A stretch of DNA of 39,376 bases from a virus: IMG/VR virus record IMGVR_UViG_3300014911_000015, positions 1-39,376 of that record; one strand, 5' to 3'. How positions within the stretch are numbered: position 1 is the stretch's first letter; each line of letters opens with the position of its first letter. Shown piece after piece: positions 1,473 through 26,075 of this stretch. The position numbers and the translations under genes are program-made. The notes below the pieces were generated by a model. The model was not told the origin of the DNA and did no database searches. It was given only the letters and a program-made list of their open reading frames with translations.

Positions 1473-1695
1473 CCGCCTTCGCCTCCTTCTTCCCGACAGC
1501 AAGCGCTCGACCAACATCCACAGCCGCCTCGCCGCCGATGTACGCAGCCACCGCAGGCCACGTTGTTTCCAGGATCTTGCAAACATCTCCCACCTTCGTT
1601 CCCGCCAGCGTCAACGCTACGCCGGCGCCCACGTACAGCGCCACGATCAGAAATTTGCGGCTGGCGAACTTCAGGAGAAATTCTTTCCAGGTCAC
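1465..1695 (-). CDS. Small single-helix membrane protein (holin-like candidate)
   Basis: A 76-residue protein with GTG start at 1695, overlapping the stop of the giant virion gene as GTGA, and a good ribosome site (GAGAGGAG, 8 nt upstream). Residues about 14-32 (RKFLIVALYVGAGVALTLAG) form a transmembrane helix; a second, weaker hydrophobic stretch with AAYIGGEAAVDV follows, then a charged lysine-rich tail. Many phages have small proteins of this shape (helix, then a YIxGE-type segment) annotated as holin-like. The lysis peptidase, however, lies 20 kb away beside another holin-like gene, so this one may instead be a pinholin, antiholin or virion-linked membrane protein. Confidence 0.65.
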   Translation of the reverse strand: MTWKEFLLKFASRKFLIVALYVGAGVALTLAGTKVGDVCKILETTWPAVAAYIGGEAAVDVGRALAVGKKEAKADE

Positions 1696-4600
1696 CGGCT
1701 CAACTCCTCTCCACGGGATCGCACATCCCGGATCACGTCCCACAAGGTGCGGCCGCTGGGCAGCTTGATCTGCTGCCGGAATATGTCGCGCGCCTCCCTG
1801 AGTTTCAGACGATACCAGTCTTGCGGCAATTCCTGCCGCAGGGTCCGTCCTGAGAACCAGGGAGCCTCGGGATATTCGCGGTAGAACGCCCGAATCTTCC
1901 CAAGGGCGCTTGCGCGTTTGGTCAGGGTCTTGGGTAGGGTCCGCATGAAGCGCAGGCTCTTGTCCGCAAGGTTTATCCGATAGAACGTGCCCAACTGGCG
2001 GGCGAGATCCCGCCATTCAGGCTCGTAGCGCACCGCTGCCGGGTGGAACTTCTCGAAGAACTTCTGGATCCTGACGGTCGGCAGGGCCTCCGTGAGGCCA
2101 TACTGTGCCTTCGTGATGTACCAGCCGAATAGACTGGTCCGGCGTGCCTCGATCGCCTCGTCCAGGAGGGTGTCGATCATCTCTTCCTCGTCCAGCTTCT
2201 TCCATCGCTTCAAGTCTGTGTTCGTGATGTACTCCACGGTCTTCTGAAGCAGCGGAAAACCCGCGTGGCCGATCTCTTCCCTGACGAGATCCTTGAGCGT
2301 CTTGTAGTTGGTCGTGTAGGCCGCTCTGTCTTCGAGGAAAGCCCAGGACAGACTGCGAAGGGCGGCATACGGCCATTGTAGAACTTGCAGGAATGACGCA
2401 GCTTCGCCAACATCCACGAAATCGGGCATGACTTGCCGGATGATCCGGCCGGAGTATTTCTGTCGGCTCAACCGTTGAGTCATGCCGAGCGGCAACGCCA
2501 TTTGCAGGTGCGCGCCCGTCAACTGGCTGTTGAACAGCGCCCAGTATACTTCGGGCGCGTAGGATGGAGCGTGTCCGTCTTCGTCCTTCTCGCTCACCTG
2601 TGCGCCGATCTTGCCGGCCTGTGTGAGCCGATGGATCGTTCGCAGGTAGAAGTCAGGGTTCTCCCACACCCGCCGCCACGTCCGGCCGAAATTGTAGATC
2701 CGGAACGTGGTGAACGGGAAGAGTCGTTTTAGTGCCTCTGTCACGCCCTGGGTTCCGAAGCGACCCTCGAGCGATTCGGGCACACCGATCGGATATCCAC
2801 CGAACAGCGGCAGTTCCACGGTCTCCTTGAAGGTCGGCCGTATCTCGGCCGCCTCGCCGCCGCTGGTGGTCTTCACCACTTTCTCGCCGGTAAATTTGAA
2901 GGTCCTGGCTGGCCGGCGGTAGTTGATGAATGCGTCGTCGACCCACTTCAGGGCTTCGTGCGGCGTCATCTGCATTGTCTCGATGGCGTGGAAGAATGCC
3001 GCCTTCCGTGCGCCTGCCTCGACCCATTGTGCGACCCGGCTCATCAGGTCGACGCCAACCAGCTTGTCTACGCCGGCCCACAGGCGGTTCCAGAGTTCAC
3101 CTGTCGCCACCTCCGTGTTCTCCAGGAAGGTTGCAAGATCGAACTGCTTCAACTCGCCCGTCGCCTCACCACCCAAGATGTCCTTGGCCGTCTCGACAAG
3201 GGCCTTGTATGTCAGGGGGCGGCGCAGCTTCAGTTGTTTGACGTATTCGGTCAAACCGTGGGCCGCGGCTTTGGGCGTGGGTCTCCAATGGCTCTGAAGG
3301 CCGAACCGCTGTAGCTCATTGGCCGCCATGTGCTCGAATAGTTTGTTGATGTCCTTCCATCGCAGGTACGCCATCAGCTTCCGGCGCTGATGGCCCGCCC
3401 CCACGACAGCCGACACCGGGACGTCCTTGCCGGCGTCGAGATCCCACAGTTTCCGTTCCTTGGTGCCGGAAACGGCGGTCCATTCGTCGTCCGGCAGCTT
3501 CGACAGATACTCCCGGATGAACGGTGCGTCCAGGTAGCTGTCCAGCGGAACGGCGAGCCTGAAGCCTTCGAGGGTCGGTCTCAGCGTCGTGTCCAGTTCA
3601 CCCTTCGCCAGCCGGTCAATCAGACTCGTAATCGGCTTGCTGGCCGTCCAGTCTCCGGCCAGATCCATCAACGCCGCCGCTTCGCCGCGCACGATGTTTT
3701 CTTGGCTCACGCCCAGCGACGCCAGCATCAGCCGGTTGTCGATGTAGTTGTGGATGTGGCTCTTGGCACTGAACGGCGTCATGTACAGGTATTCTCGCGA
3801 TTTGCCGTGGAAGAACTTGTACAGCCCCCGCAGCGCCTTACCCGTCATGTCGGTGAGCCTGCGGGCTACGGCCGGCAGGACGTAGCCCGGCAGGTTCATG
3901 GCGGCCTCTGTCAGTCGGCGGTCGATCTCTTCGCCCAGCGAGTAGAACGACAGACCTGGCTTCGGCTGGGTGGCAATCTGCAGGATCATCCTGCCAAGCG
4001 GGTCCGCCTCATTCACCTGAATGTCTTTCATTGTGTCGAGAGGCATCACCGTCCAGCGGTCGCCGGTCTCCAACACCTCACCGGGTGTCGCCGCCATGCT
4101 GGTTGGCCGAACGACGTGATCGAGCAGAGGATCCTTGGCGAACTGCCGCACGAGGTCCTGGAAAGCCTGGCCTGCGACCCTAGCCCCTAGCGCCTTTTCA
4201 TATTGCTGGATGGCCAGAACGGGGTTTTCCTCGTAGAAGTTCCACGGATTATCCGGCCAGTCCCAACCAGCCACTTCCGGCGCCCTGCCAGCGTTGACCG
4301 CATCGTTCTTGGCTCCCACGGGAAGTCCTCGGAATACCTCCCGGCCCCGCTCGATCTGCGACACTGGCGAGCCGTAGACGCTTGTCTCTGCGATCTTGGT
4401 GGTCAGATAGAGATCCAGCTTGTTGTGTAGCTCGGGATCCAGAATGATCTCGTCGTAGTCCTTCTCGATCAGGGCCTCGTAGGTCTCCAGACGGCGGGCG
4501 AGGATCTCCTGTGCTTTCTCGGTCCACGCCTCCGGGGTCAGGCGCAGAAACTCGTCGTAGTCCAGTTCGCCGATCAGACCTGTAAAATCGGCGTCTTTGG

Positions 4601-7600
4601 CAGCCTGGTAGTCGCCCTCAGCCATGGCAGCTTCGATCTTCAGCCACGTCTCGCCAAGCTGCTTCGACTTCAGATATTCGACATCTCGCCGGAGAGCCTG
4701 CCGCATCGCGGTCACGCCCTCTTTCGAGATGATGTGTGGGAAATATCCCAGGATCGTATCCTCCATCGGCAGAGGGGCGCCGAAATCCTCAGCCGTGACC
4801 TTCAATTCGCCGAACCGCTTTGCGAACGCCCTGGATAGCTCCCCCGCAGGCCCGGGCAATTCGGTCGTCCTTACCAGACCATCGGGGTCAGCCAGCCAGC
4901 TACCGAAGCCTAACCGGTACAGTCGGTGCAAGCGGCGCATGTAGTCGATCCGCAACATCTCGGCCAGTTGCGTCCGCTTTTCCCGAAGCTGCTTCACCCG
5001 CCCCTCGTACTGTTTCACCACGCGCTTCCGGGTGGGCTTGTCCAACTTCCGGGCCTTCTTGGCCAACTTCTCGACGGCCTCAAGTTCCTCCTGGACCACG
5101 TCGTACTCGCTCAAACGGTCGAAAAACTCGTTTGCCTCCTCCAAACCCGCAACCTTGCCGACGTGGTGCTTGGTTGCCGACCAGGCCGTGGCTGGATCCA
5201 GACCGCCCTGAATCAGCCGATCGGCCGTCTGGACAGCGACCTTCTGAACTTCTTCGGGCTGCGCGGCCAGCCACATCTGCCACATCGCCGCCCGGGTCTT
5301 GGTCGTCAGGAAGGGCTCGCCGAATACCTTTTCCATCGCTGTCAGTGTGTCGGCATGGAGGCCTTTGAACAATTCAAGCGCCTCCGGATTGGCCCGCAGA
5401 TATGCCGGCAGGTGGGCCTTCGCCGCCGGCCAAGCCGATACCAAGTGCTGGATCGCCAGAGTGTCGTCGCCCTCGCGCCAGATATCGAAGATCGTATCGA
5501 GAACCGCAGTCGGCATGTCCTTGGCCAGCACGGTGAATTCAGGGCCGATCTGCTCTTGATCGATAAGATTTATCAGTGTTTGTTTCGCACCGTTTTTCCG
5601 CCAATGGACGTAATAAAGCGGACCTCGGTGCGGATCATGGATTATCCCGTGACGCAGTTCGGGAGGAACGGCGTCCGGATGGCTGACGGCATTAAGGTCG
5701 ATGACATATTCTTGCTCCATTTCCCGCAGCAATGCTTCAAGGCGATCAGCAGGCATTCCGAGCTCCTGCTGTAGCAACGGGATGGGCACCAAGGGGATTT
5801 GCCTCTCTGCCTGCAGGCGTTCATAGGCAGCCTTGACCGCCTTGTAGTCTTCTATCTTTCGGCCGGATGCCGGCTTTGTGGCGGATGTCGGGACAGCTTG
5901 CCCTTGATTGATGAGATCCATCAACGCTTGATCTGCGCCCCTTTTTCGCCAGTGGACATAATAGAGGGGTCCCCGATGAGGATCTTGAATTACGCCGTGA
6001 CGCAGTTCGGGTGGCACGATATCGACGTGGCTGACAGGCTGCAAGTCGATGACGTAATCCGCCTCCATTTGGCGCAGCAACGCCTCGAACTGGTCGGCAG
6101 GCACCTTGTCGCCCAGCGCTCGTTGAAGAAGCGGGATGGGGACCAGCGTATTTTGTCGCCCCTGCCGCAACTGCTCGTAAGCCTCCTTGACTTCTCTGTA
6201 CTCCTGCGCCTTCTGTGCCGTCTGAGCGAGCGCTTGAAGCTTGCTCAGTTTTGCCGCGCCAGCTTCTACGGCGGCCCTACGACCAGCCTCAAGTACTTCG
6301 GGCGAGGTGTCGGTCTTAGTGGTGGCGAGGATCCTGGTGTGCAGGTCGTCGCTCAAAGGCGGTTCCTCGATCTCGAACGGGTCCGCCTCGGCCGATTTGA
6401 CGATTTCCTCGGCCTGCTTGGCGATCTGTTCCGCTACGCCCTGCTGGTCGCGCAGCCGATATTCGCCCCGGACCTTCTTGACTTCACGCCCGCCGGCGGC
6501 CATTGCGGCCTCAGCGCGCTTGATTTGTTCGAGATGCTTCTGAACAGTGTCGAGGTCGGCCTCGGTCTCGCGGACCTTCCCGGCAATCTCCTTGGCGAAC
6601 TCCCGGATCTCGACGAACTTGCGAAACTGCTCTTGCTCGGCTGGCGAGCCGTTCTTCAGCGCCGTCAGGGTCGCCTCCATTTCGACGAGGCTTTCGCTCA
6701 GGTCGCCGGTCAAATAGTCCGTGAGATCGGCTGCGTAGCGAGCCAGCGCGCCCTGGGGATCAGCCTCGATAATGCCGGCGATCTGCGCTGCCCTCTCGGC
6801 GGCCTTCTCAAGATCCGGCATCGTCTCGAACGGCTTTCGAAGCTCGATATGGTCTCTGACGACATCGAGGACCCTGGCCGGGTTCTCGTAGTTATCCACA
6901 ATCGCATCCAGCAAAGGCTCGACGTCCTGCATCCACTGGTTCGTGCGAAGCTCCAGAACCAGGCGAAGGTGCTCGGGGTACTGATCGACCAGATGGTAAG
7001 CCTCTTCCCAAGCCTTGCGCATCAGTTTTGCCCGTTCCGGGGCGAACTCGATGACGTGGTGCAGGAGGCGGGCTAATCCACCCAAGTATTCTTGTGGCGT
7101 TAACCCTACACCGGGAAGGTAGTACTGCGGCATCAAAGCTCTAGGTCCAGTCTTTACGAGCGCTGTCAATGCGGCATCAACCTCGGGGACCTCCCAGACA
7201 CCCGCTTCGTTGAGGGTGGCACCACGTTCTACCCGATCCAACCATTCGGTCAATTCATCAACTGGAATCTCGATATTCTTGATTGGTGGACGGGCGCCAA
7301 GATGCCGCTCGAAGGCCGCGCGGAACGAGTTCCAGCGTTCCTTGAGGCCTGCGCGGCTCCATCGAGTGACCGCTCTATGAACACCGCCGGCGAAACGGGT
7401 GTAGATACCGCCTGTGCGCTCGAACTCGACCACATCCTTACCGGCAGCCTTGGCCGCTTCGGCCGCCCGTCGCAGAAACGCGATTCCCTGCTTGCCGGTG
7501 GCCTTGACGAAGCGGGCGGCATGTGCCGTGCCTTTGGCTAAGGCACGAATCGGCGCTTGGGGCGCCAACTTCACAGCCAGCACCGCGCCGAGGACTTCAC

Positions 7601-8603
7601 GCGGCAGAGGGCCAATCTTTTCCCGCATGCCGGTAGGTGTCATCTCCCGAACCAATCGCGCCCGTTCGTTGTGGTACGCCCGGGTAATTGCGGCTCGCTC
7701 GGGATCCAGGAGGCTGATTAGCCATGCCTGCGGATCATAAGGCATTTCCGCTTTCGCTTGAATGGCGTTCGAGATCCACAGATCCTTCGGGATGCCGAGA
7801 TGGGCCAAGACGTCCGACCAGTGGTAGAATTTCCCCGGCTCTCGCCAGATCAATCCCTGCAGCAAGGACGATACTCCGGTCGTCAGGGCGCCCTGAAGCG
7901 TCCCCACGACGCGTTCGACTGCACCCCCTACATCTACCCCTTTTTCCTTGGCCGACGCGCCTGTGGCCCGCTCACGGGCCTTCTCGGCTTGCTGCCGCTC
8001 GATGGTCTCCCCCGACCCTTTGATCGCGCCAACAATAAACCCTGCCGGCGCCTCGAAGAGTGCGTAGGAAAGTCGGCTGAGACCAGATAGAAGGGCGCCG
8101 CCAGCATAGCCCGGGGCAGCAAGCATCGTCCGTCTTGCAGCCTCTTCCAGGGTGGCGGCAGCAAACTTGCCGGCGAACGAAGTCCCGACAGCCGTCCTGA
8201 TGGCTGGACCACCTACCAGTCGCATCCCGGCGTCGACTGCGCTCTCGTGCAACCGATGCACGTAGTTCATCGTGCTGGTGGGTAGTTTCTTCAGCCGCTC
8301 CCAACCCTTGCTGAATATCTGGTAGACCGTTCCGCCGGTCCTATCGAGGTATTCCTTATGTGCGGCGTCGAGAGCTTCGATCTCGTCGGCGAGTAGCTCG
8401 TCCCGCGTCTTCTGCTCGAAGGTCCGGCGGTCTACATCCTGCGGATACGGCTCGATCAGGCCGCGCTTCTGGATTTCTGCCATCACAGGATCCACCTGTG
8501 CAGGCGGCGCCCCGGGAAGGTCGGCCACGGGCTGTTTGTCGGGCGCGAAGGACGGCAACAGATCTGTGCGCAGGTTTTCGCTCGTCTGGCTTCCGTCAGC
8601 CAT
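1692..8603 (-). CDS. Giant internal virion / DNA-ejection protein with duplicated winged-helix-like domain
   Basis: A 2303-residue protein from ATG 8603 (GGAGGGG 5 nt upstream), overlapping the preceding gene by 8 nt. Size, Ala/Glu/Arg-rich helical composition and position after the tail genes match the large internal proteins that podovirus-like particles inject with the DNA. I find no convincing lysozyme, transglycosylase or polymerase motif. Residues 801-902 and 918-1020 are a tandem duplication: each has a lead helix, LVPIPLL, an LLRxMExxYVIDL helix-strand, VSHxDxVP and a terminal RGPLYYVHWRK hairpin, the layout expected of a winged helix. The same domain ends the first rightward gene (25455-26075). 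Before it (about 620-800) is a Glu/Lys-rich coiled-coil stretch; the C-terminal third has aromatic, Arg-rich helices (FPFTTFRIYNFGRTWRRVW). The ejection role is inferred. Confidence 0.85.
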   Translation of the reverse strand: MADGSQTSENLRTDLLPSFAPDKQPVADLPGAPPAQVDPVMAEIQKRGLIEPYPQDVDRRTFEQKTRDELLADEIEALDAAHKEYLDRTGGTVYQIFSKGWERLKKLPTSTMNYVHRLHESAVDAGMRLVGGPAIRTAVGTSFAGKFAAATLEEAARRTMLAAPGYAGGALLSGLSRLSYALFEAPAGFIVGAIKGSGETIERQQAEKARERATGASAKEKGVDVGGAVERVVGTLQGALTTGVSSLLQGLIWREPGKFYHWSDVLAHLGIPKDLWISNAIQAKAEMPYDPQAWLISLLDPERAAITRAYHNERARLVREMTPTGMREKIGPLPREVLGAVLAVKLAPQAPIRALAKGTAHAARFVKATGKQGIAFLRRAAEAAKAAGKDVVEFERTGGIYTRFAGGVHRAVTRWSRAGLKERWNSFRAAFERHLGARPPIKNIEIPVDELTEWLDRVERGATLNEAGVWEVPEVDAALTALVKTGPRALMPQYYLPGVGLTPQEYLGGLARLLHHVIEFAPERAKLMRKAWEEAYHLVDQYPEHLRLVLELRTNQWMQDVEPLLDAIVDNYENPARVLDVVRDHIELRKPFETMPDLEKAAERAAQIAGIIEADPQGALARYAADLTDYLTGDLSESLVEMEATLTALKNGSPAEQEQFRKFVEIREFAKEIAGKVRETEADLDTVQKHLEQIKRAEAAMAAGGREVKKVRGEYRLRDQQGVAEQIAKQAEEIVKSAEADPFEIEEPPLSDDLHTRILATTKTDTSPEVLEAGRRAAVEAGAAKLSKLQALAQTAQKAQEYREVKEAYEQLRQGRQNTLVPIPLLQRALGDKVPADQFEALLRQMEADYVIDLQPVSHVDIVPPELRHGVIQDPHRGPLYYVHWRKRGADQALMDLINQGQAVPTSATKPASGRKIEDYKAVKAAYERLQAERQIPLVPIPLLQQELGMPADRLEALLREMEQEYVIDLNAVSHPDAVPPELRHGIIHDPHRGPLYYVHWRKNGAKQTLINLIDQEQIGPEFTVLAKDMPTAVLDTIFDIWREGDDTLAIQHLVSAWPAAKAHLPAYLRANPEALELFKGLHADTLTAMEKVFGEPFLTTKTRAAMWQMWLAAQPEEVQKVAVQTADRLIQGGLDPATAWSATKHHVGKVAGLEEANEFFDRLSEYDVVQEELEAVEKLAKKARKLDKPTRKRVVKQYEGRVKQLREKRTQLAEMLRIDYMRRLHRLYRLGFGSWLADPDGLVRTTELPGPAGELSRAFAKRFGELKVTAEDFGAPLPMEDTILGYFPHIISKEGVTAMRQALRRDVEYLKSKQLGETWLKIEAAMAEGDYQAAKDADFTGLIGELDYDEFLRLTPEAWTEKAQEILARRLETYEALIEKDYDEIILDPELHNKLDLYLTTKIAETSVYGSPVSQIERGREVFRGLPVGAKNDAVNAGRAPEVAGWDWPDNPWNFYEENPVLAIQQYEKALGARVAGQAFQDLVRQFAKDPLLDHVVRPTSMAATPGEVLETGDRWTVMPLDTMKDIQVNEADPLGRMILQIATQPKPGLSFYSLGEEIDRRLTEAAMNLPGYVLPAVARRLTDMTGKALRGLYKFFHGKSREYLYMTPFSAKSHIHNYIDNRLMLASLGVSQENIVRGEAAALMDLAGDWTASKPITSLIDRLAKGELDTTLRPTLEGFRLAVPLDSYLDAPFIREYLSKLPDDEWTAVSGTKERKLWDLDAGKDVPVSAVVGAGHQRRKLMAYLRWKDINKLFEHMAANELQRFGLQSHWRPTPKAAAHGLTEYVKQLKLRRPLTYKALVETAKDILGGEATGELKQFDLATFLENTEVATGELWNRLWAGVDKLVGVDLMSRVAQWVEAGARKAAFFHAIETMQMTPHEALKWVDDAFINYRRPARTFKFTGEKVVKTTSGGEAAEIRPTFKETVELPLFGGYPIGVPESLEGRFGTQGVTEALKRLFPFTTFRIYNFGRTWRRVWENPDFYLRTIHRLTQAGKIGAQVSEKDEDGHAPSYAPEVYWALFNSQLTGAHLQMALPLGMTQRLSRQKYSGRIIRQVMPDFVDVGEAASFLQVLQWPYAALRSLSWAFLEDRAAYTTNYKTLKDLVREEIGHAGFPLLQKTVEYITNTDLKRWKKLDEEEMIDTLLDEAIEARRTSLFGWYITKAQYGLTEALPTVRIQKFFEKFHPAAVRYEPEWRDLARQLGTFYRINLADKSLRFMRTLPKTLTKRASALGKIRAFYREYPEAPWFSGRTLRQELPQDWYRLKLREARDIFRQQIKLPSGRTLWDVIRDVRSRGEELSR

Positions 8604-10326
8604 TCGGCCCCTCCCGCATTGGCATCTGTTCCGCCGGGCCGATACCGCTCGTCATCGGCACTGGCAGCGGTCCCTGGGCAGGCCATTCCCCAGCGACGCG
8701 TCCTTGCCTACCCGCGCCGGCCTCGGCCTCGAAGATGCCACGTTCGGTGTCCGCAAATCGACCCTCCCTGGCCAGCCTGCGGCCGATCTGCAGGGCATAG
8801 AACTGATCGATCCAATTCTGAACACCGACAGCCTTCGACCCCAAGGCGGCGAAATGGTAGCTGGTAAGCTGATCACCAAAGATCGCCTGGGCACCCGAGA
8901 TCAACCGCTCCGTGAAGATCCGGCGCACCTTGTTTGGATCGGTCCGGAGAGCCAAATCGAACCAGCTTTCTCGCTTGAGTGATTGCAGTGTGGCTTTGCC
9001 CAAATCGCGCAAAACCTGAACGACAGGCTTACCCGGCGCTGCAATGCTGGAATAGGCCGGAGACAGGGGGCTTCTCGGGGGCCGAAACCTTTGTGGCCTG
9101 AGATATGCCACGGGATCGAAGACATTCCGGGCTACAAATTGCACGGCGTCCACGATTTTCTGGCTCTCGGCAGCCAATTGCCCGATCTCGGAGAAGTAGC
9201 CGGCGATCAGGTTTTTGGCTTGCTCTGGCTCCATACCGCCCTTCACCAGATTTTGCAGAAGCTCGCTACGTTTGTCGACCAATTCCGCCTGCTTCTGGCG
9301 CAGTAAGGCGATTTGGGCCTGTGCGCGCATCGCACGTTGAACCGCCTCGGCGGCGTTGTTGTAGCCTCGAAGCCTGGCGGCGTCATCGATAGATCCGGTC
9401 ATCAGGCTCATCATGTTCAGGGTCGTCAGGTTCGAGTCGTTGACGATCTTTTCGAGGCCCTTGGCTTGATGCTCCAGGGCGGCCACAGCCTCCTTGGTCT
9501 GGTCGGCGACACCCTGAAGCCACATCTTGATCGTGTCGAATGCCAACCGCTGGCGGGCGACAGTGTTCGGGAAGTCGCCCGAACCAAGCTGCTGAACCGC
9601 CGATGTGGCCTTTTCGGTGAATGCCTCCGTGCTTTCGGCCATGTGGGCTATTATGGCTGGCACCGCCCCCTTGGCGGTCTGCTCGACAGGCTTCTTCTCA
9701 ACCTCCTTGAGCGCCTTCCTGGCGAGGCTCTTCTCGACCGAGAACAAGCCGAGTGTGTGAGCCATCACGCGGCGGGCCAGGACGGATGCGCCCGGATCTC
9801 CGAGGTTGGCGAGGCGCTCTATCCCTTGGGTGAACGAAGCGAATGCCTTGGCAGTCTCAGTCTGGCTTTGTCGATCAGCCTCACCAGCCTTCCGCAACGC
9901 CTCTTTTTCGGCGATGCCGAGGCGACGCGCCTCGTTGGCCAGCGCCATTCTGCGCCAGAAGTTGTCCCATTCCATTTTCTCGCGTTCGAGTTTCGTCTGC
10001 TCTTCGCGATAAGCCTTGAGCGCTTGCGCTTGCTGCTCTTGAACACCCAGGAGACCCTTTTGGTATTTCTCTGTTGCGGCTTGCGTCTGTTCGGACACGG
10101 CGACACGACGCTCTTCAAGGCCGACCTTTTTCTGCTGTAATTCGCGAGAAGCCCGGGCCTCTTCTTTCTGCGCCTGCAATTGCGCCCAGCCCTGCTGGAT
10201 CTTCTCGGCTTCCAGCGCCAAGCGCATCTCGCTCAATTCGGCCGCTCGTTCGGCCGCCTTTGCGGCCTGCTGCTCCCGAAACCACGCTGTCCAACCGGAG
10301 GCCCAATCGGCAAACGCATCACTCAT
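8596..10326 (-). CDS. Coiled-coil internal virion protein (ejection-type)
   Basis: A 576-residue protein from ATG 10326, with AGGAGG 8 nt upstream. The first ~170 residues are a long Ala/Glu/Gln/Lys-rich coiled coil (for example LEAEKIQQGWAQLQAQKEE); the middle is helical, and the C-terminal ~150 residues are Pro/Arg/Gly-richer, ending in PMREGPNG. It lies between the basic 282-residue protein and the giant protein, in the place where short-tailed phages encode two or three ejection proteins. No catalytic motif was recognised. The ejection-protein assignment rests on position, helical composition and neighbours. Confidence 0.75.
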   Translation of the reverse strand: MSDAFADWASGWTAWFREQQAAKAAERAAELSEMRLALEAEKIQQGWAQLQAQKEEARASRELQQKKVGLEERRVAVSEQTQAATEKYQKGLLGVQEQQAQALKAYREEQTKLEREKMEWDNFWRRMALANEARRLGIAEKEALRKAGEADRQSQTETAKAFASFTQGIERLANLGDPGASVLARRVMAHTLGLFSVEKSLARKALKEVEKKPVEQTAKGAVPAIIAHMAESTEAFTEKATSAVQQLGSGDFPNTVARQRLAFDTIKMWLQGVADQTKEAVAALEHQAKGLEKIVNDSNLTTLNMMSLMTGSIDDAARLRGYNNAAEAVQRAMRAQAQIALLRQKQAELVDKRSELLQNLVKGGMEPEQAKNLIAGYFSEIGQLAAESQKIVDAVQFVARNVFDPVAYLRPQRFRPPRSPLSPAYSSIAAPGKPVVQVLRDLGKATLQSLKRESWFDLALRTDPNKVRRIFTERLISGAQAIFGDQLTSYHFAALGSKAVGVQNWIDQFYALQIGRRLAREGRFADTERGIFEAEAGAGRQGRVAGEWPAQGPLPVPMTSGIGPAEQMPMREGPNG

Positions 10327-16359: not shown

Positions 16360-17610
16360 CTACCTGTGCTCGATGAAGCCAGGCGCCGTGTAGTTCAGGT
16401 CGTCGATGCGGCACTGCTTCATGGGGTTGCGGCAAACGAGGTTGCCGTAAGTCCTGATAACTCCTTCGACAGCGTCCTTGTCGGCGACGCGGGAGAGGAT
16501 ACGACCGTCGTCGTCCATCCACGAGACGATGCCGTCACCCGCGTAGTAGTAGGTGATCACGCTCGTGTCGAGCGCGAAAACCCTGTGAATCGGGCAGTCG
16601 AGATCCAGCTTGATCGGGACGCCCATGTAGGAGGCCTGCGCCGGATTGTAGCCGCCCGAATACACCGGGGTCTCGTTCGGCCTGACCAGGAAAGACCGAT
16701 CGGCCGAAATCAGCGATTCGGCGTAGGTCCTCCACATGCTCGGGTGCATGAGAAGGAGATCGATCCTGGCACCCGCACGCTCGTAAGGCTGCATCACGGC
16801 CTGAGCGAGCAGGCTTTCGGTCAGGTCGCGACCGGTCCCGCTGTTGCCCAGCACGAGGGCCTGAACCTGCTCGTAAGTCGAGCGCGACAGGTTTTGGAAC
16901 GTCGAGACGATCGTGCCGTCGTCCACGATACCCAAGAGGCCCATCGGCTCTTTGTCCTTCGAGTCCTCGAGATAGATCCAGGCGTTGTCGTCGACCGTTA
17001 CGTTTTGCGACATCGTGATCTGGGTCGTCGAATCGACCGACGCGATCGATTCGGAGTCCAGGTTGTTCGATGCTCCGCCGGCCGTGTCGATGATCATGCC
17101 CTTGGCCAGGAAGCGCGTGCCCACGGCGTTCTGGCCATAGCCGGTCACACCGTCCACCGTCACGGTCGTATCGCTTGATACATCACCGTTCACCTGGGCG
17201 AGCTTCCCGGTGCCATCGCCCCAGAGGATGCGATTCAGGTTGACCCGGAAGCTCTCGACCATGTCGGTCATGGCTTCCTGCATGGCGTTTACGAGCGAAC
17301 CCAGGCCTTGGCCGATCGCCTTGGCGACACCCGTCACTGCGAATCGCCCATAAACGTACTTCGCCATCACCTCGAACTGCAGGTAGTCGGCAGTCTGCGC
17401 CGTCGGCAGCGTACCACCCTCTGCTCGGGCACCGATACCCTGGTTGCGGTCAGTCTTCAGCGCCATGATCTGCTTTCGGCCGGTGTACTTGCCGGGCCTG
17501 GCGCCGAACAGCGAGAGGATCCCCGTCTCGTCCATCAGGAGCTTCTCGATCTCCGGGAGGACGACGTCTTTCAATACTTCGTCGAGGACGGATAGCGTGA
17601 AGTTGGCCAT
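16360..17610 (-). CDS. Major capsid protein
   Basis: A 416-residue protein from ATG 17610. The N-terminal helix (FTLSVLDEVLKDVVLPEIEKLL) followed by a beta segment with an RNQGIGARAEGGTLP loop and YVYGRFAVTG is typical of HK97-fold capsid proteins of phages with a separate scaffold gene. A second typical feature is the late segment DLLLMHPSMWRTYAESL ... NPAQASYMGVPIKLDLDCP, the conserved 'hinge plus G-x-P-I' pattern of the P-domain end. Gene order (portal, scaffold-like, capsid) also supports it. The start context is weak (AAAGGCGG region), which is surprising for such an abundant protein. Confidence 0.88.
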   Translation of the reverse strand: MANFTLSVLDEVLKDVVLPEIEKLLMDETGILSLFGARPGKYTGRKQIMALKTDRNQGIGARAEGGTLPTAQTADYLQFEVMAKYVYGRFAVTGVAKAIGQGLGSLVNAMQEAMTDMVESFRVNLNRILWGDGTGKLAQVNGDVSSDTTVTVDGVTGYGQNAVGTRFLAKGMIIDTAGGASNNLDSESIASVDSTTQITMSQNVTVDDNAWIYLEDSKDKEPMGLLGIVDDGTIVSTFQNLSRSTYEQVQALVLGNSGTGRDLTESLLAQAVMQPYERAGARIDLLLMHPSMWRTYAESLISADRSFLVRPNETPVYSGGYNPAQASYMGVPIKLDLDCPIHRVFALDTSVITYYYAGDGIVSWMDDDGRILSRVADKDAVEGVIRTYGNLVCRNPMKQCRIDDLNYTAPGFIEHR

Positions 17611-18624: not shown

Positions 18625-20709
18625 CTACGAACCGGCCTGCCTGCCGGCGGGCGTCATCACCCGCTGGATTGTACCCGGCGCCGCCAAGGTGTCCCCTCCG
18701 GAAATATCGGCGAACTCTCGACGGAGGAAGTCTTGGTGCGCTTGGCAATGCTGCTCGAAAATCTCGCGAACAGCCTGGTCCAACTCGAACCATTCCGGCC
18801 GGTTCCTGATGCGATTGTGCAGCTTCAAATGATACCAGTGGTCGTTCTGCTCGCCCGGCAACAGAGGTATGCCCTGACGCAGCATCAGGCGATGCTCCCA
18901 CCGGACCAATCGTTCCGTGATTCTGTTGTCCTCGTTCGCCTCTTCGGGCAGGGCGAACTCGGCTAAATGCTTGAAGTCGGCCTGGTTGATGGCTCCCATT
19001 TGGGCCAATTCGGCCAACATCTGAAGGCGCAGGCTGCGGCTCTTCGGCGCAGCCGATCCTGCCGTCGCCTTCACGTCCACCGAGCCTTGCAGGTCGGCAG
19101 CGGTGAACAGGATGATCTCGTCTTCCATGTCCTGCCCCGAGCACCGGATGATCCGCGGCACCGCATAGAACTCCTGGGCCAATCGGAGCACGTGCTGACA
19201 GACCCGCTCGTAACCCGCCTCGATTGCCACGAACATCGGAAAGAAGAGGCTGTGGCTCTGTTCCATCATGTGCGACAACATCGTGCCGGACCGGGCGCCT
19301 GGCGGGTTGAGGCCGCGCAGGATGTCCGTCATGCCCGAAATCTGATCGATGTACTGCGTCAGCATCGTGATGATGCCCGTCACCCACGACGGCATCGGGG
19401 GCGGCACCATGAATTCGGGTTTGCCGGCCTGCTGGAGTATCGGGTCGTACTCCAGAACCTGAACCTCGTCATTCCCGAGGCTCCTCATCTCGATGTTCGC
19501 GTTACGACTGATGAGGACCTTGGGGCGGCCAAGGATATTCGCGTCGTCGATCCAGCTACTGATGCGCTTGTCGATGGCCCGATTGGCCATCCGCAGCATC
19601 CGAAGCGTCGTCATGCCGTACGGCGAGCCTGAAACCGGGATGCACTTGAACCACGTGAACGGCAGGGTGTTGCCGTACGGGTTCCGGGTCTCGATCTCCT
19701 TCGTCGGGCGGCTCTTCCCCGAGAACACAATATACCGACCCTCGGGATACTTGATGCTGGGCCGCTCGAAATACTCTCTGATGAAGACGTAACTGTCCTC
19801 GAACCAACCGCCGCCCGATTGCGCCATCAGATGCCACGGGTGGGCGTGCGCCATGATGTCGGCGTAATTCAGATCCTGGTCCGGTTCGAGGTCCGGCAGG
19901 TTGAAGCGCAACCGGGCTAATTCCACGTGCCAGACCCGGCCGAACATCGCCCAGAAAGCTTCGTGGGGATCCTCTTGGCTGGCGTCCCAGCGCATCGAGA
20001 AGATATCGCCGACATCCAGCCGGATCCGGCCCTCGTGCATCTGCCAGAATCGTGGCCGCCCGGTCTCATCGGTGGCGAAGACGGGATTGCCCTCTTCGTC
20101 CTCCTCACCCGTGAACTCGGGAATCACCAGCGGTTCGCCGGCGCTTGGATCGTAGTACGGGTACAAAACCCCGATTCCCGTCAATTCCGTCGCCTGGGCC
20201 AACCTTTCCCGCACCAGAGCAAATTCGTGACTTTCGGTGAACTCGCGCAATAGATACTTCGCGACCCGGGCGGCCGCCTTGTCCCGCTCGTTGTAGGTCG
20301 TCGGCTCGGCCGAGACATTCGGCACCGCTTTCGTCCGCATCGAGACCAAATCCCGAATCACCCGGTTGGCGATGTTCAGCACGTGTTTCTGCGTCTTGCT
20401 CTGGCTCGGGATCCTGACCGAGAGATTGTTGGTGGACGTGTGGACGAGGGTGCTGCGCTGCGTGAAGTGGTAGCCCTTGAAGAACTCGATATTCACCACG
20501 GCTTCAAGCATCGCCTGCAAGTGCCCTGGCGGCGGGTTCTCCCAGCGCTTGGCGCACAGGTCCTCGTCCGACAATTCCGTCGAGTATCGACGTTGCACCA
20601 GCGGCCGCCGGCCTTCGGCCGGGTGGGCCGAGGGTATCACTTGGCGCATCGCACGCTGGATCATGCCGATCGGCGTCCAGGCCCGCAATCTGTCACCGAG
20701 GCCCACCAT
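18625..20709 (-). CDS. Portal protein (podovirus-type)
   Basis: A 694-residue protein. I choose ATG 20709, which shares TGATG with the upstream stop; a TTG at 20712 is the only earlier start. Typical portal features are the N-terminal wing helices with AMLEAVVNIEFFKGYHF, the YWP-like aromatic patches (VLYPYYDPSAGEPLVIPEF), the TLPFTWFKCIPVSGSPYGM segment, the long stem-forming stretch after VTGIITMLTQYIDQISGMTD, and a C-terminal Gln/His-rich helical barrel (EQHCQAHQDFLRREFADISGG). The length is in the usual range for portals of short-tailed phages and larger than HK97-type portals. The position between terminase/lysis genes and the scaffold supports the call. Confidence 0.88.
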   Translation of the reverse strand: MVGLGDRLRAWTPIGMIQRAMRQVIPSAHPAEGRRPLVQRRYSTELSDEDLCAKRWENPPPGHLQAMLEAVVNIEFFKGYHFTQRSTLVHTSTNNLSVRIPSQSKTQKHVLNIANRVIRDLVSMRTKAVPNVSAEPTTYNERDKAAARVAKYLLREFTESHEFALVRERLAQATELTGIGVLYPYYDPSAGEPLVIPEFTGEEDEEGNPVFATDETGRPRFWQMHEGRIRLDVGDIFSMRWDASQEDPHEAFWAMFGRVWHVELARLRFNLPDLEPDQDLNYADIMAHAHPWHLMAQSGGGWFEDSYVFIREYFERPSIKYPEGRYIVFSGKSRPTKEIETRNPYGNTLPFTWFKCIPVSGSPYGMTTLRMLRMANRAIDKRISSWIDDANILGRPKVLISRNANIEMRSLGNDEVQVLEYDPILQQAGKPEFMVPPPMPSWVTGIITMLTQYIDQISGMTDILRGLNPPGARSGTMLSHMMEQSHSLFFPMFVAIEAGYERVCQHVLRLAQEFYAVPRIIRCSGQDMEDEIILFTAADLQGSVDVKATAGSAAPKSRSLRLQMLAELAQMGAINQADFKHLAEFALPEEANEDNRITERLVRWEHRLMLRQGIPLLPGEQNDHWYHLKLHNRIRNRPEWFELDQAVREIFEQHCQAHQDFLRREFADISGGDTLAAPGTIQRVMTPAGRQAGS

Positions 20710-21044
20710 CAATACGCGCTCCCATCATCGACGTAGCCGAAAGCGCCCTCCGGCTCTACCGGGGCGCCTTCGTCGTCTATACCGAGCTCGGAACGGAGCT
20801 GTTTCTGCATCTTTCGGGCCTCTTCACTCAGCCCTCCGGGCATCTCCAGGGAAGGGTACTCTGCGGCTTGGCGCGGCGCCGATTCCGTCGAACCACCCGA
20901 CTTCCGTTGATACCGCCCGGCGCCGGTCACCGCGCCCATGTACAGCTTTAGCACGTAGACCAGCGCGGCGGCCAGTGCGATTTGAACCGCTCCGCTCACG
21001 GCCACGGCCACCAGCAGGACGAAAACCGGATCAGACGTATTCAC
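20709..21044 (-). CDS. Small single-pass membrane protein
   Basis: A 111-residue protein with GTG start at 21044, overlapping the peptidase gene by 14 nt. Residues about 7-33 (VFVLLVAVAVSGAVQIALAA) form a transmembrane helix, then comes a Ser/Gly/Gln-rich linker and an acidic C-terminus (SELGIDDEGAPVEPEGAFGY). Neighbours are the peptidase on one side and the portal on the other. A single N-terminal helix with a soluble tail, beside lysis genes, could be a spanin-like or second holin component, but I see no lipobox and no family match, so the role is open. Confidence 0.65.
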   Translation of the reverse strand: MNTSDPVFVLLVAVAVSGAVQIALAAALVYVLKLYMGAVTGAGRYQRKSGGSTESAPRQAAEYPSLEMPGGLSEEARKMQKQLRSELGIDDEGAPVEPEGAFGYVDDGSAY

Positions 21045-21474
21045 GTAGCGCCTTCTCCCACGATATTCTCTGCCGGCCCCTGTATCCCCAGCGGGCCCGC
21101 TTGCGCCTCACGTCGAGATGAACCCCCCACGGGTAAACGCCGATTCCGCCTTCACGGAATTCCGCTACCGCCTCGGCGGCCTGAGCGAGCCCCGACGGAC
21201 TCACTTCGTCGCTGTGAAGGTCTATCGCCTCACCCCAGAGATGCCTGCTTCTAGGCGAGGCTCCGACTATCGTGTTGTTGTGCAACGTGCAGCGGTAACC
21301 CGAATTGACCACCAACGGAGTTCCTGCCGGCAAGATATCGAGCACCAAACGGCAATAGGCGACCACAAGCCGCGGCGATACCATCATGTAATCGCAGCCG
21401 CATCGGCATCGGAAATCCCACCAAGGAAAAACCTCGGCCATCACACGACTGAATACTTCATGCTCCGTCTTCAT
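21031..21474 (-). CDS. M15-type zinc peptidase (endolysin-like, D-Ala-D-Ala carboxypeptidase fold)
   Basis: A 147-residue protein from ATG 21474, sharing TGATG with the holin-like gene; the longer upstream extension of the frame is low-complexity and overlaps that gene. It carries the M15_3 pattern: SGYRC at 58-62, then SRHLWGEAIDLH with zinc ligands His78 and Asp85, and VHLDV with His119. These match peptidases that cleave peptidoglycan stem peptides. It is probably the lysis enzyme, placed directly after a holin-like gene. There is no signal peptide, so it depends on a holin for export. A peculiarity is the cysteine-rich start (FRCRCGCDYM), which may add metal or disulfide stability. Confidence 0.88.
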   Translation of the reverse strand: MKTEHEVFSRVMAEVFPWWDFRCRCGCDYMMVSPRLVVAYCRLVLDILPAGTPLVVNSGYRCTLHNNTIVGASPRSRHLWGEAIDLHSDEVSPSGLAQAAEAVAEFREGGIGVYPWGVHLDVRRKRARWGYRGRQRISWEKALREYV

Positions 21475-21788
21475 CAGAGCACCCCCAGCCGCCTCAGTGC
21501 CACCAGAAGCCCCAGAAGCGGCACCACCACCTTCGCCACGTCCAGCCACCCTAGCGCACGAGACGCCCTCGTGGCAAGGGCGTCCTTGTTCTGCAGGGCA
21601 AGCTTGCGTATTTCGTTCCGGTCGTTGCTTGCAGCCTGCAGCTTGGCGGCGCATCGTGTCTCGCAGGCTTCTCGCTCCATCCGAGCCGCCTCGATCTTGG
21701 CGGACAAGCCACCGATCTCGTGCTTCACCTCGCCGATCTGGTCCTTGATCTCGAGGACCGCTTGGAAGATCTCCTGGCTCGACGCCAA
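21474..21788 (-). CDS. Coiled-coil, C-terminally anchored holin-like protein (XhlA-type)
   Basis: About 104 residues. The frame has TTG starts at 21794 and 21788; AGGAGGG lies too close to the first, so 21788 is preferred. Layout: an N-terminal amphipathic helical region (FQAVLEIKDQIGEVKHEIGG), a charged coiled coil with CETRC, and a C-terminal hydrophobic helix (VAKVVVPLLGLLVALRR). This is the layout of XhlA/haemolysin-type holins, which are a coiled coil plus a C-terminal membrane helix. Its stop overlaps the start of the M15 peptidase, giving a lysis cassette. The exact holin family is inferred from layout. Confidence 0.75.
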   Translation of the reverse strand: MASSQEIFQAVLEIKDQIGEVKHEIGGLSAKIEAARMEREACETRCAAKLQAASNDRNEIRKLALQNKDALATRASRALGWLDVAKVVVPLLGLLVALRRLGVL

Positions 21789-21853: not shown

Positions 21854-23482
21854 CTACCCTTCCACGCCGAACCACTCTCCCAGGGCGGCGATCATCGCGC
21901 TCTGGCGAAAAGCCTTGCGCTTGTCGGCCTCGATTCGGCGCTGCCAATGCTCCCGAATCACCTGTTCGCGCGTCTTCGTCTGTCTCTCGTCGCTCTTGAT
22001 GTCCTCCAGGCGCCGAATCGGCGTGAAAATCTGGTTCGCTTGCGCCAAAGCGTCGGGAAAATCGTCGTAATCGCTGCCCGGATATCCCTCCAACTGCGCC
22101 ACCGCGATCTGCATGGACTCGTCATCGCGATATTCGCTGTTGAAAAACACCCCATTCGCGTCGAACCGGGGTTTCAGCCCCAGAATCCGGGCCATTTTGG
22201 CCTTCTGCGGCCCCCGCGGCAATGCATGAACCGGGAAGAAACGGTCATTTTCGAGCATGATCCGGTTCAACTCGGAGGCGATCATCGTCTGGAAGCCGAA
22301 CGCCTCCACCACCACGCCTACGAAGTAACTCCTGTAGCCCTTGTACTCGAACCGCGGCAGCCACGAATCGACTGTTCGGATAGCCATGTCGAACAGCATC
22401 CTCGGCGTGTAGGCCGCCCGCTGGCGCTTCATGTATACTTCACACACGAACAGCAGATGCCGCGACCTCGCGTGCGCCACGACCACGATCGCCGTGTAAT
22501 CCGCCCGCTTGTTCACCGAGTCGTTCGGGTCGCACAGCACGGCCAACTGATAGTCATCTGGCGGCATCTGTTTCGGTTCCCGCCACAGGATGTTCGGAAA
22601 CGGTCGCTCCTCGTCCTCGATCGGGTCGTTCAGGTAGTTGCAGGCGAACAGCCGGGCCCCCAACTGCGCCCGCTTCTGCCGCAGGACCTCGTGGCTCAGA
22701 ATCGTCGGGAAATTCAGCTTTCCGTTCTTGTCGTACGCGCGCTTCTCCAGCACCGTGAACCCGAAGGCCCGCCGGTGCTGCTTGATGTACCCGTACAGGT
22801 CGTACTTGTGCCACCGGGTCCCGACCACCGCCCCCACACCACCAGGATCCATCAAGGGCAGCGCGTCCCGGAATCTCGCCAGCGTCGTCAGTCTCTCGGC
22901 CTCCGAGTCCACCAGCCGAGGATCCACCGGGTCGTCGAAGATGATCCAGTCGAAGTGCATCCCCGTCGGGATGTTCGTCAGCCCGCAGACCGAAATCGTC
23001 GGCTCCTTGCGGTACTTCTTCCGGCTCGAGACACAGATCTGCGTCGCCGTCCAGGGCCACCCCTTCGGCACGTCGCATAACGGCCGGCCCTTGACGCCTG
23101 TGAAGAGGCGGTAAAACAGGCTCGTCTCGTTCGTCAGATGCCCCTTGATTTCCGCCAAGTAGTTCTTCGCCCGCTCCTGCGAGTAGCAGACGATCAGCCC
23201 CCGACTGTCGCCCCAGAGGTTCGTCGGGTCTGTCGCGTCCCGCGCGATCCTCCACAGCGGATACCCGATACTGCACGTGGTGGACTTGAACGTTCCCCGA
23301 GGCCAGAGCGTCATCAGCCACCGGTCGGGCTTCAACCCCATCAATTCGTCGCACATCCGCCGGTGGACCTCCGGCACATACCGGTCGTACCCCAGGACGA
23401 ACTTCAGCAACACGTAGAGGTCCTCCCGGGCCAACAGCCTCAGGTCTTCAAGGGTCAACGGCTTACCGCTGCCGCCGGCCAC
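21854..23482 (-). CDS. terL: Terminase large subunit
   Basis: About 542 residues; two adjacent GTG codons (23485 and 23482) can start it, and AAGGGAG is better spaced for the second. The ATPase has a Walker A-like WPRGTFKST near residues 60-68, a motif block GLIVCYSQERAKNYL, Walker B IIFDDP near 180-185 and the coupling-type segment VGTRWHKYDLYG. The RNase H-like nuclease domain begins with LAVLCDPNDSVNKRADY and ends with YPGSDYDDFPDALAQA, the typical late acidic motif. It cuts and pumps phage DNA into the head through the portal. The gene starts inside the upstream 58-residue ORF. Confidence 0.93.
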   Translation of the reverse strand: MAGGSGKPLTLEDLRLLAREDLYVLLKFVLGYDRYVPEVHRRMCDELMGLKPDRWLMTLWPRGTFKSTTCSIGYPLWRIARDATDPTNLWGDSRGLIVCYSQERAKNYLAEIKGHLTNETSLFYRLFTGVKGRPLCDVPKGWPWTATQICVSSRKKYRKEPTISVCGLTNIPTGMHFDWIIFDDPVDPRLVDSEAERLTTLARFRDALPLMDPGGVGAVVGTRWHKYDLYGYIKQHRRAFGFTVLEKRAYDKNGKLNFPTILSHEVLRQKRAQLGARLFACNYLNDPIEDEERPFPNILWREPKQMPPDDYQLAVLCDPNDSVNKRADYTAIVVVAHARSRHLLFVCEVYMKRQRAAYTPRMLFDMAIRTVDSWLPRFEYKGYRSYFVGVVVEAFGFQTMIASELNRIMLENDRFFPVHALPRGPQKAKMARILGLKPRFDANGVFFNSEYRDDESMQIAVAQLEGYPGSDYDDFPDALAQANQIFTPIRRLEDIKSDERQTKTREQVIREHWQRRIEADKRKAFRQSAMIAALGEWFGVEG

Positions 23483-23639
23483 CACCGCTCCCTTTCCGCC
23501 GGCGCCTCGCCTTCGACGCCATGATCGCCCTGTGCTGCGCCAACGCCCCCGCCCTCGTCCCGTGCCGGCCGAGCACCTTGCCCTTGTCGGGCCCGTGACA
23601 GTGCACCACCACCCAATACCGCCCCTGCCGCACGATCAT
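23463..23639 (-). CDS. 58-residue basic protein between the terminase genes
   Basis: A short ORF of 58 codons. ATG 23639 shares ATGA with the stop of the small-terminase-like gene and is preceded by GAGGACGA; its stop (TAA 23465-23463) lies inside the large terminase gene. The translation starts MIVRQGRYWVVVHCHGPDKG and continues to a KARRRRKGSGGGRR tail, a short beta-hairpin followed by a strongly basic end. Coupled overlaps on both sides and sensible composition argue that it is real. It could be a small DNA- or RNA-binding protein. Function unknown. Confidence 0.65.
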   Translation of the reverse strand: MIVRQGRYWVVVHCHGPDKGKVLGRHGTRAGALAQHRAIMASKARRRRKGSGGGRRQR

Positions 23640-24743: not shown

Positions 24744-24907
24744 GTTGCGTAGGAGATCGCCCCCCATCCCACGACTCTGCTCACCGATACCACCGACTCC
24801 AGTGCCTCGCCACGCCCGACTCGCTGCCTCGCGTGAATGCGCCTCTTTGCCGCTCCTAGACTGCGGTCGCGCCCGCCTAAGCCCGCCTTTGCGCGGGTTC
24901 ACTCTAG

Positions 24908-24971
24908 GCGATTTACAAGGGGCTCCTAAGAGAGTACTACGTACTCTCTATAGAGCCCCGTAGTAAATCGC
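24908..24971. repeat. 64-nt near-palindrome
   Basis: Three nested perfect arms: GCGATTTAC/GTAAATCGC (24908-24916 with 24963-24971), GGGGCTC/GAGCCCC (24919-24925 with 24953-24959) and AGAGAGTAC/GTACTCTCT (24929-24937 with 24941-24949), with internal loops of 2-3 nt and a TAC tip. It could fold as RNA or extrude as a cruciform. Confidence 0.85.
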
Positions 24972-25069
24972 GCAGATTTCCTCCCACTCGCACGCGCGCA
25001 TTTCGGGCCGGACTACGCTCCTGGAGCCGCTTACAGCGTTTGCCACGCGTGCGCTCGTGACCGGCGTTT

Positions 25070-25295
25070 CGGGACACGCTGTCCCATTTGTGCGATACGT
25101 GTGCCTCTGTGGCGCTCCTGGTGCCGCATGCGAGTGTTTTTCGGTTGCGTCCTGAGGCATGGCTCGCCCGACTCAAGCGCCACTCGCACCAGCCAGACTC
25201 ACTACCGCGACAGACTGTCGTGGCTCTCGGCCGCTGTGCACCGATCGGGTCACTCTGACCCAGCCAGAGTGCACCGGTCGGGACGCTGTGTCCCA
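25070..25295. promoter_or_regulatory. Array of short palindromes upstream of the sigma-54 promoter (possible enhancer sites)
   Basis: Three 17-bp dyads have the same outer frame CGGG...CCCA: CGGGACACGCTGTCCCA (25070-25086), CGGGTCACTCTGACCCA (25246-25262) and CGGGACGCTGTGTCCCA (25279-25295). A related 13-bp dyad, CGACAGACTGTCG, is at 25208-25220. The two right-hand dyads sit in direct repeats that start GTGCACCG. They lie about 105-330 bp upstream of the predicted sigma-54 start, where activator proteins of that system usually bind. They could equally be RNA hairpins; the compensating base changes fit both ideas. Confidence 0.5.
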
Positions 25296-25390: not shown

Positions 25391-25454
25391 CTATGTTTCG
25401 GCGGCTGTACGGACACTCACTGGCCCCAGTGGGGCCCTGACGGGAGGAGAGACT

Positions 25455-26075
25455 ATGAGGGCGTTGACGAATCTCGGGAGACTTGCGCAGAAGTATCCGA
25501 CCATCTTCCCTATCCCAGGCGGCGTCATCAGGCAAGAACGGGAGCGGCGGTGGCTTCTTGACTGGGACGGTCATAGCTACACATTTGACGCCCGTCCTAC
25601 GCACGCTGTTATCGCAACAAGGAGCCGCAAAGTAGAACTGCTCGCAATCCGCCTCTACGACGATAAACTGCGAGACGAGACATGGACTGCTGTAGGCTGG
25701 CATCGGCGCCAGCCCGAGTATGTTGTCATCAATGCGTACGGTGCAGCCGGAAGAGCCCTCTACGGCCGCGTCAAAGACGAAGAGCGGTCCGAAGAAGAAG
25801 AAATAGATGCCAGAAAACTCATGGCCGAGACATACGAGCGCATCAACGCAGAGCGCAACTGCAGGAATCTCGTGCCGATCCCGCTTCTGAAACGGGCGCT
25901 TGCCTCCAGCTTGCCTCCCGGAGCGATAAATGACTTGTTGCGGGAGATGGAGTTGGACTACGTCATCGATCTCCAGCCGGTGAGTCATCCCGACGCGGTT
26001 CCGGCAGAGGACAGGCGGCTGGGAATATCGGATCCCTACAGGGGACTCCTGTATTACGTCTACTGGAGAGAGTGA
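25455..26075 (+). CDS. First early gene: protein with C-terminal winged-helix-like domain shared with the giant virion protein
   Basis: A 206-residue protein from ATG 25455 behind GGAGGAGAG; the frame extends further upstream, but that part crosses the sigma-54 promoter and is not coding. Residues 1-105 form an alpha/beta domain of unknown family (WLLDWDGHSYTFDARPTHAV, then WTAVGWHRRQPEYVVINAYG), followed by an acidic linker (KDEERSEEEEIDAR). Residues about 122-206 are the same domain as residues 801-902 and 918-1020 of the giant ejected protein; in my hand alignment 43 of 67 positions match the first copy from LVPIPLL to YYVxWR. The fold looks like a winged helix, so a DNA-binding or regulatory role is plausible. 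It is the likely first product of the sigma-54 promoter. Confidence 0.85.
   Translation: MRALTNLGRLAQKYPTIFPIPGGVIRQERERRWLLDWDGHSYTFDARPTHAVIATRSRKVELLAIRLYDDKLRDETWTAVGWHRRQPEYVVINAYGAAGRALYGRVKDEERSEEEEIDARKLMAETYERINAERNCRNLVPIPLLKRALASSLPPGAINDLLREMELDYVIDLQPVSHPDAVPAEDRRLGISDPYRGLLYYVYWRE

Follow-up and report, generated by a model that had tools for sequence, protein, structure and literature searches.

The 39,376-base viral record analyzed here in its entirety (the window) encodes the same winged-helix domain in two separate genes, once at the C-terminal end of the 206-residue product of the first rightward gene and twice in tandem within a 2303-residue giant protein of the leftward virion gene block, and this domain belongs to a family whose bacterial members are, in most of the loci collected, encoded directly upstream of a P-loop ATPase. 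We tentatively favor, at somewhat less than an even chance, the reading that it serves as an adaptor, carried both by a protein that enters with the DNA and by one made early, through which the phage acts on a single host target, most likely a complex of the ATPase type, which it would bind as a decoy or hijack. The coordinates of the relevant features are given in Table 1.

Table 1. Positions of the domain copies, the genes that carry them, and neighboring features in the window.
Feature	Position	Strand	Remark
Gene of 206-aa first rightward protein (P0001)	25455..26075	+	ORF and translation
N-terminal part of early protein, residues 1-112	25455..25790	+
Winged-helix copy E, early-protein residues 116-206	25800..26072	+
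Nested inverted repeats in divergent non-coding region, candidate binding site or hairpin	24903..24976	.	inner palindrome 24919-24959
Two 27-nt direct repeats (81%), candidate operator	25236..25295	.	~160-220 bp 5' of early gene
Gene of 2303-aa giant late protein (P0002)	1692..8603	-	ORF
Winged-helix copy G1 in giant, about residues 795-886	5946..6221	-
Winged-helix copy G2 in giant, about residues 916-1002	5598..5858	-
576-aa coiled-coil-like late protein preceding giant	8596..10326	-
Major capsid protein	16360..17610	-	PHROG 14242, E = 4e-38
Portal protein	18625..20712	-	PHROG 156, E = 8e-30
Large terminase	21854..23485	-	PHROG 38, E = 3e-70

By BLASTP, residues 125-206 of the early protein match residues 807-887 of the giant with 47 of 82 positions identical (57%, E = 6e-25), and residues 116-206 match residues 916-1003 with 49 of 91 identical (54%, E = 8e-24). 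A Smith-Waterman score of 228 compares with a mean of 42 and a maximum of 59 in 200 shuffles, and chance similarity was ruled out by these E-values together with the shuffle test. The proposal made in an earlier note on this DNA, that about 85 residues are shared and occur twice in tandem in the giant, was thereby borne out, the shared stretch being of ~85-90 residues and falling at ~801-890 and ~918-1007 of the giant, and its hand count of 43 identical residues among 67 of the core, between the early copy and the first giant copy, proved exact; the domain itself starts upstream of that core, at about residue 116 of the early protein, and includes a long helix there. The record contains exactly three copies (E, G1, and G2), and no fourth was found in it even with the wider family profile. 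G1 and G2 share 51 of 65 core residues and are closer to each other than either is to E. The phylogeny that the earlier note had proposed, here a 60-sequence tree including 57 relatives, placed the window copies in one clade (support 98/96), in which G1 is sister to G2 (100/95).

At fourfold-degenerate sites in identical codon boxes, the copies agree in 33-45% of cases, against a random expectation of 32-41% derived from the codon usage of the phage genome, while protein identity among the three is 56-73%. Because the fourfold sites are near-random while the protein sequence is kept, the duplications look old and the protein sequences of all three copies look to be held by purifying selection; a recent duplication is ruled out by the same sites. 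Invariant residues are concentrated in strand β3 (7 of 9), the β1-α2 segment (8 of 11), β2 (5 of 8), and the wing (12 of 21), compared with 5 of 13 in the recognition helix and 3 of 20 in helix 1. Since the wing and strand residues are conserved despite near-random fourfold sites, a common binding surface seems to have been retained by the three copies.

The gene of the 206-residue protein is the first ORF beyond a non-coding divergent region of ~1.2 kb, is preceded by a ribosome-binding-like sequence, GGGAGGAG, at 25442-25449, 5 nt upstream of its ATG, and precedes genes for YqaJ, RecT, and DnaB in the same orientation. Judging from this gene order, it is probably an early gene; no sigma-70-like promoter adjoining it was found. 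The near-perfect palindrome inside the inverted repeats of the divergent region could be a hairpin, an origin, or an operator. Residues 1-112 of the early protein are without relatives in searches of libraries and sequence collections and appear β-rich in what is a low-confidence model only, and AF2 prediction of the single full-length protein was uninformative (pLDDT 37).

The giant is the penultimate ORF in the leftward virion gene block, a position at the end of the block that is matched by the layout in ctLwi270, and on the basis of this order it is probably packaged and acts as an ejected or internal virion protein. Searches of curated libraries recognized no other domain in it, enzymatic domains included. 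The phage has no close relatives, as a whole or through its proteins, in IMG/VR, GTDB genomes, or phage and plasmid collections; its capsid, portal, or terminase is shared with distant phages only, such as ctLwi270, from which the winged-helix domain is absent, and ANMV-1. The terminase finds its best named match (29% identity) in ANMV-1, a virus of uncultured methane-oxidizing archaea, whereas an M15 peptidase encoded at 21031-21654 suggests a bacterial host.

Neither the domain nor the two proteins that carry it gave a significant match in Pfam, PHROGs, PADLOC, NCBIfam, or PDB sequence searches. AF2 prediction of the early copy with 13 sequences, on the other hand, yielded a confident model (pLDDT 89.6, pTM 0.79) with the order α1-β1-α2-α3-β2-wing-β3 that defines the winged helix-turn-helix superfamily, in agreement with the winged-helix-like fold suspected earlier. 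On this predicted structure, the domain is a winged helix of an uncurated family. An identity with LPD15 (PF18828), raised by a weak match in one bacterial protein, was rejected by direct search, which gave no match in the window and a best E of 0.6 elsewhere.

The bacterial side of the family, together with the Thermobispora and IMG/VR copies described below, was opened with a composite bait modeled on a Planctomycetota motif rather than taken from a database record; all statistics were computed on retrieved sequences, and no conclusion depends on the bait. When the profile of the window copies was compared by hhalign with one of ten bacterial relatives, the profile-profile match scored 99.0% (E = 4e-18) over 83 columns spanning the whole domain, while twelve column-shuffled controls all remained below 0.5%. 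Many of the bacterial relatives were retrieved with profiles containing the window copies, and two checks consequently matter: the search in the reverse direction, from the ATPase, which is described below, and a profile built from the three window copies alone, which recovered bacterial copies at 4e-13 to 9e-11 among 421 ORFs. Genome searches detected the domain in 22 of the 392 genomes covered from the Gemmata phylum and in 15 of the 200 covered from a second phylum; further baits used against IMG/VR returned nothing.

In bacteria the domain forms the C-terminal part of proteins of 200-600 residues, and in 33 of 45 distinct loci, from two phyla, the domain protein is encoded directly upstream of a homologous P-loop ATPase on the same strand, the two genes usually overlapping or lying within ~150 nt of each other. 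The reverse search, which started from the ATPase, found the domain directly upstream in 10 of 12 loci, and these 10 include three that had not been chosen through the domain. The ATPase is assigned to AAA_16/AAA_22 by Pfam, with BrxC_BrxD above the cut-off in one case, and some of these proteins also contain a fused HerA or FtsK module. The next gene in Gemmata encodes a PD-(D/E)XK-HerA protein as judged by profile, and that in Zavarzinella as judged by like sequence and position, so that ATPase, HerA/FtsK, nuclease, and winged helix come together in one locus of the Gemmata/Zavarzinella type, and partly in fused forms. The remaining 12 of the 45 loci are without the ATPase, and many others have only the two-gene pair, without a neighboring HerA or nuclease. 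This conserved two-gene operon may be a defense module in its own right, an anti-phage role being assigned to it by resemblance. At one locus (L139), the protein encoded upstream of the ATPase has a C-terminal domain of different appearance (VFISHVWRNL...FKRHLAEANRMGLLSLSRADLV), and in some operons this domain may take the place of the winged helix. The winged-helix and ATPase pair also occurs in a genome record titled Dichelobacter nodosus (L014 and L081, from the cave MAG SulCav) with a Planctomycetota-like sequence; its label may be doubtful, or the pair may have been transferred. None of the seven phage, viral-contig, or phage-plasmid records searched encodes a cognate ATPase, the window has none, and the two-gene system as such is absent from the phage.

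The domain also occurs in other phages. The one strong match among viral models, G9BWI1 (Foldseek E = 1e-4, TM 0.86), would correspond to ORF078 of the Planktothrix phage PaV-LD, as pointed to by its length of 492 residues and a weak tblastn match, and this identification was checked by sequence profile, which located two tandem copies (best 1.7e-12) in ORF078, a gene of the virion (head-tail) cluster. The gene that follows it, ORF079 (8400-10175 of the PaV-LD record), lies within the same cluster, contains two ADP-ribosyltransferase-like stretches and may encode an injected effector. Further copies are carried by a MuF head protein (L035) and a helicase protein (L032) on IMG/VR contigs, and three are present in a 3842-residue protein of Thermobispora encoded between portal and prohead protease genes. 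The Thermobispora plasmid (NZ_CP039125.1) is phage-plasmid-like, with portal, prohead protease, and capsid genes, and the domain-bearing region of the 3842-residue protein is present in it twice, at ~18.5-20.7 kb and 126.7-128.9 kb. The phage copies are thus borne by proteins that enter, or might enter, the cell with the DNA, namely the MuF protein, ORF078, the Thermobispora giant, and the giant of the window. Within this sample, only the phage studied here has the domain in two separate genes, the other phage records having one such protein each. The earlier note had allowed that the domain might turn out to be a generic repeat in unrelated structural proteins, and this is partly the case, because it is a general module of bacterial and several unrelated phage proteins; sharing of the domain is therefore no proof by itself of a private link between the early protein and the giant.

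What the three copies bind can be considered from the surface of the predicted fold. The earlier note had named a DNA site and the host polymerase as possible targets. In a DNA-binding role, the copies in the giant would hold or steer the incoming genome, while the early copy would bind operators at 24.2-25.45 kb and regulate early transcription or replication. The fold itself, the repeats, both inverted and direct, that precede the early gene, the XRE- or MarR-like N-termini to which bacterial copies are fused, and matches in the PDB, mostly to MarR- and PadR-like winged helices and other DNA-binding regulators, would suit such a role. These structural matches are, however, weak, none having E < 0.001, and the chemistry of the surface differs from the basic or polar recognition helix of sequence-specific DNA binders: helix 3 has a net charge of -2 in all three copies, the wing is acidic, and the whole domain has a net charge of -1 to -3. 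Given this acidic recognition helix, whose conservation falls short of that in the wing and sheet, sequence-specific DNA reading is disfavored and protein binding is favored; the idea of a DNA site is weakened accordingly, and we regard the DNA-binding role as a somewhat unlikely one. For the host polymerase no support was found.

Protein binding could also take place within the virion. The copies in the giant might pack or oligomerize in the head as a module of assembly or self-association, and the early protein would then be a chaperone, a regulator, or an assembly partner. The tandem arrangement and the occurrence of the domain on structural proteins of phages, such as the MuF protein, ORF078, and the Thermobispora giant beside the portal, are consistent with this, but the domain is present also in the helicase protein and in many bacterial proteins that have no virion to build, and the third copy is encoded among the replication-side genes rather than in the late block, which makes an assembly module rather improbable. 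We consider still less probable a neutral history, an ordinary duplication in which a promiscuous bacterial domain entered the phage a single time and was then moved about in its genome, the copies diverging to unrelated roles. A widespread and mobile domain, with an early copy more distant than the tandem copies are from each other, would be expected from such a history, but the retention of the same wing and strand residues in all three copies at near-random fourfold sites argues against it.

The favored reading, an adaptor directed at one host target, has a precedent in phage T4, whose Alt is an injected head protein with relatives, ModA and ModB, that are early products, the proteins acting successively on host targets (PMC2988021, PMC5512222). 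As in T4, one domain family is found here in two proteins of one phage; the T4 domain, however, is an ADP-ribosyltransferase enzyme with known targets and that of the window a non-catalytic winged helix, and injection and early synthesis are known for T4, while packaging and timing are read from gene order for the window phage. PaV-LD ORF078 resembles the giant in its two tandem copies and its location in a virion gene cluster and is the closest viral structural match to the domain, but PaV-LD belongs to a different phage group and its genome has no second gene for the domain. The giant is also comparable with T7-type ejection proteins (gp14/15/16), which are likewise large late products, encoded where the structural block of a short-tailed phage ends, although no sequence similarity to them and no transglycosylase domain were found. 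Polyvalent proteins (Iyer et al. 2017) are likewise giant, are multidomain, are encoded with virion genes, and are predicted to be injected, with solo versions of their domains elsewhere; they combine two or more domains that differ in activity; the giant lies in the late block, and no other domain was recognized in it. The winged helix matches neither of the LPDs tried: LPD15 gave no match and LPD38 only a sub-threshold one in the neighboring 576-residue protein (9163-9336, E = 0.004, below the cut-off).

The bacterial ATPase partnership suggests what the phage domain may bind. HerA/FtsK capture systems are composed of an Orc/Cdc6 ATPase, a REase, HerA/FtsK, and a wHTH protein, often a fast-evolving multi-wHTH protein (PMC10853773), and BREX-related capture systems are their relatives (PMC12839542); the anti-invader role of both is a prediction in those papers. 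The bacterial loci of the domain resemble them in having an AAA+ ATPase, some together with HerA/FtsK and PD-(D/E)XK, a likeness in make-up rather than gene by gene, while the phage has the winged helix only. Under the adaptor reading, the face formed by wing and sheet would be the surface by which the domain binds a single host target, the ejected giant would engage that target at once after entry, and the early protein would keep the same target engaged later, as ModA and ModB do after Alt. The likeliest target would be a host complex with the type of ATPase that partners the domain in bacteria, and its binding might serve as a decoy or a hijack. The earlier suggestion that the two proteins share a target is thus plausible, given the conservation at the protein level with near-random fourfold sites, the recurrence of relatives on phage entry or virion proteins, and the T4 precedent; a point against it is that the pairing of early protein and giant is known from one genome, for which no close relatives were found.

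A stricter version of the decoy, which we consider unlikely, is that the domain would act by itself as a stand-alone mimic of the wHTH subunit of an AAA+ anti-invader complex, two copies being delivered and the third resynthesized so that the complex would be occupied both ahead of early infection and in its course. The proteins of the PaV-LD, MuF, and phage-plasmid types would then use the same trick. With an identity to bacterial copies of at most ~28%, the phage copies are not obvious mimics of any one particular subunit, which counts against the favored reading as well. In either form, decoy or adaptor, an AAA+ ATPase complex is a more specific and testable idea than the DNA site or polymerase proposed before.

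These findings link a domain of phage entry and early proteins with the subunit that accompanies the ATPase in a widespread bacterial module of two genes, and, as far as the present searches reach, the two had not been joined before. To our knowledge, there is no known inhibitor of defense of the HerA/FtsK-capture-like type. If the phage copies bind the ATPase, the arrangement would constitute a two-stage counter-defense and provide a handle on that type of defense. Even if they do not, the study defines an uncurated winged-helix family that has a testable partner.
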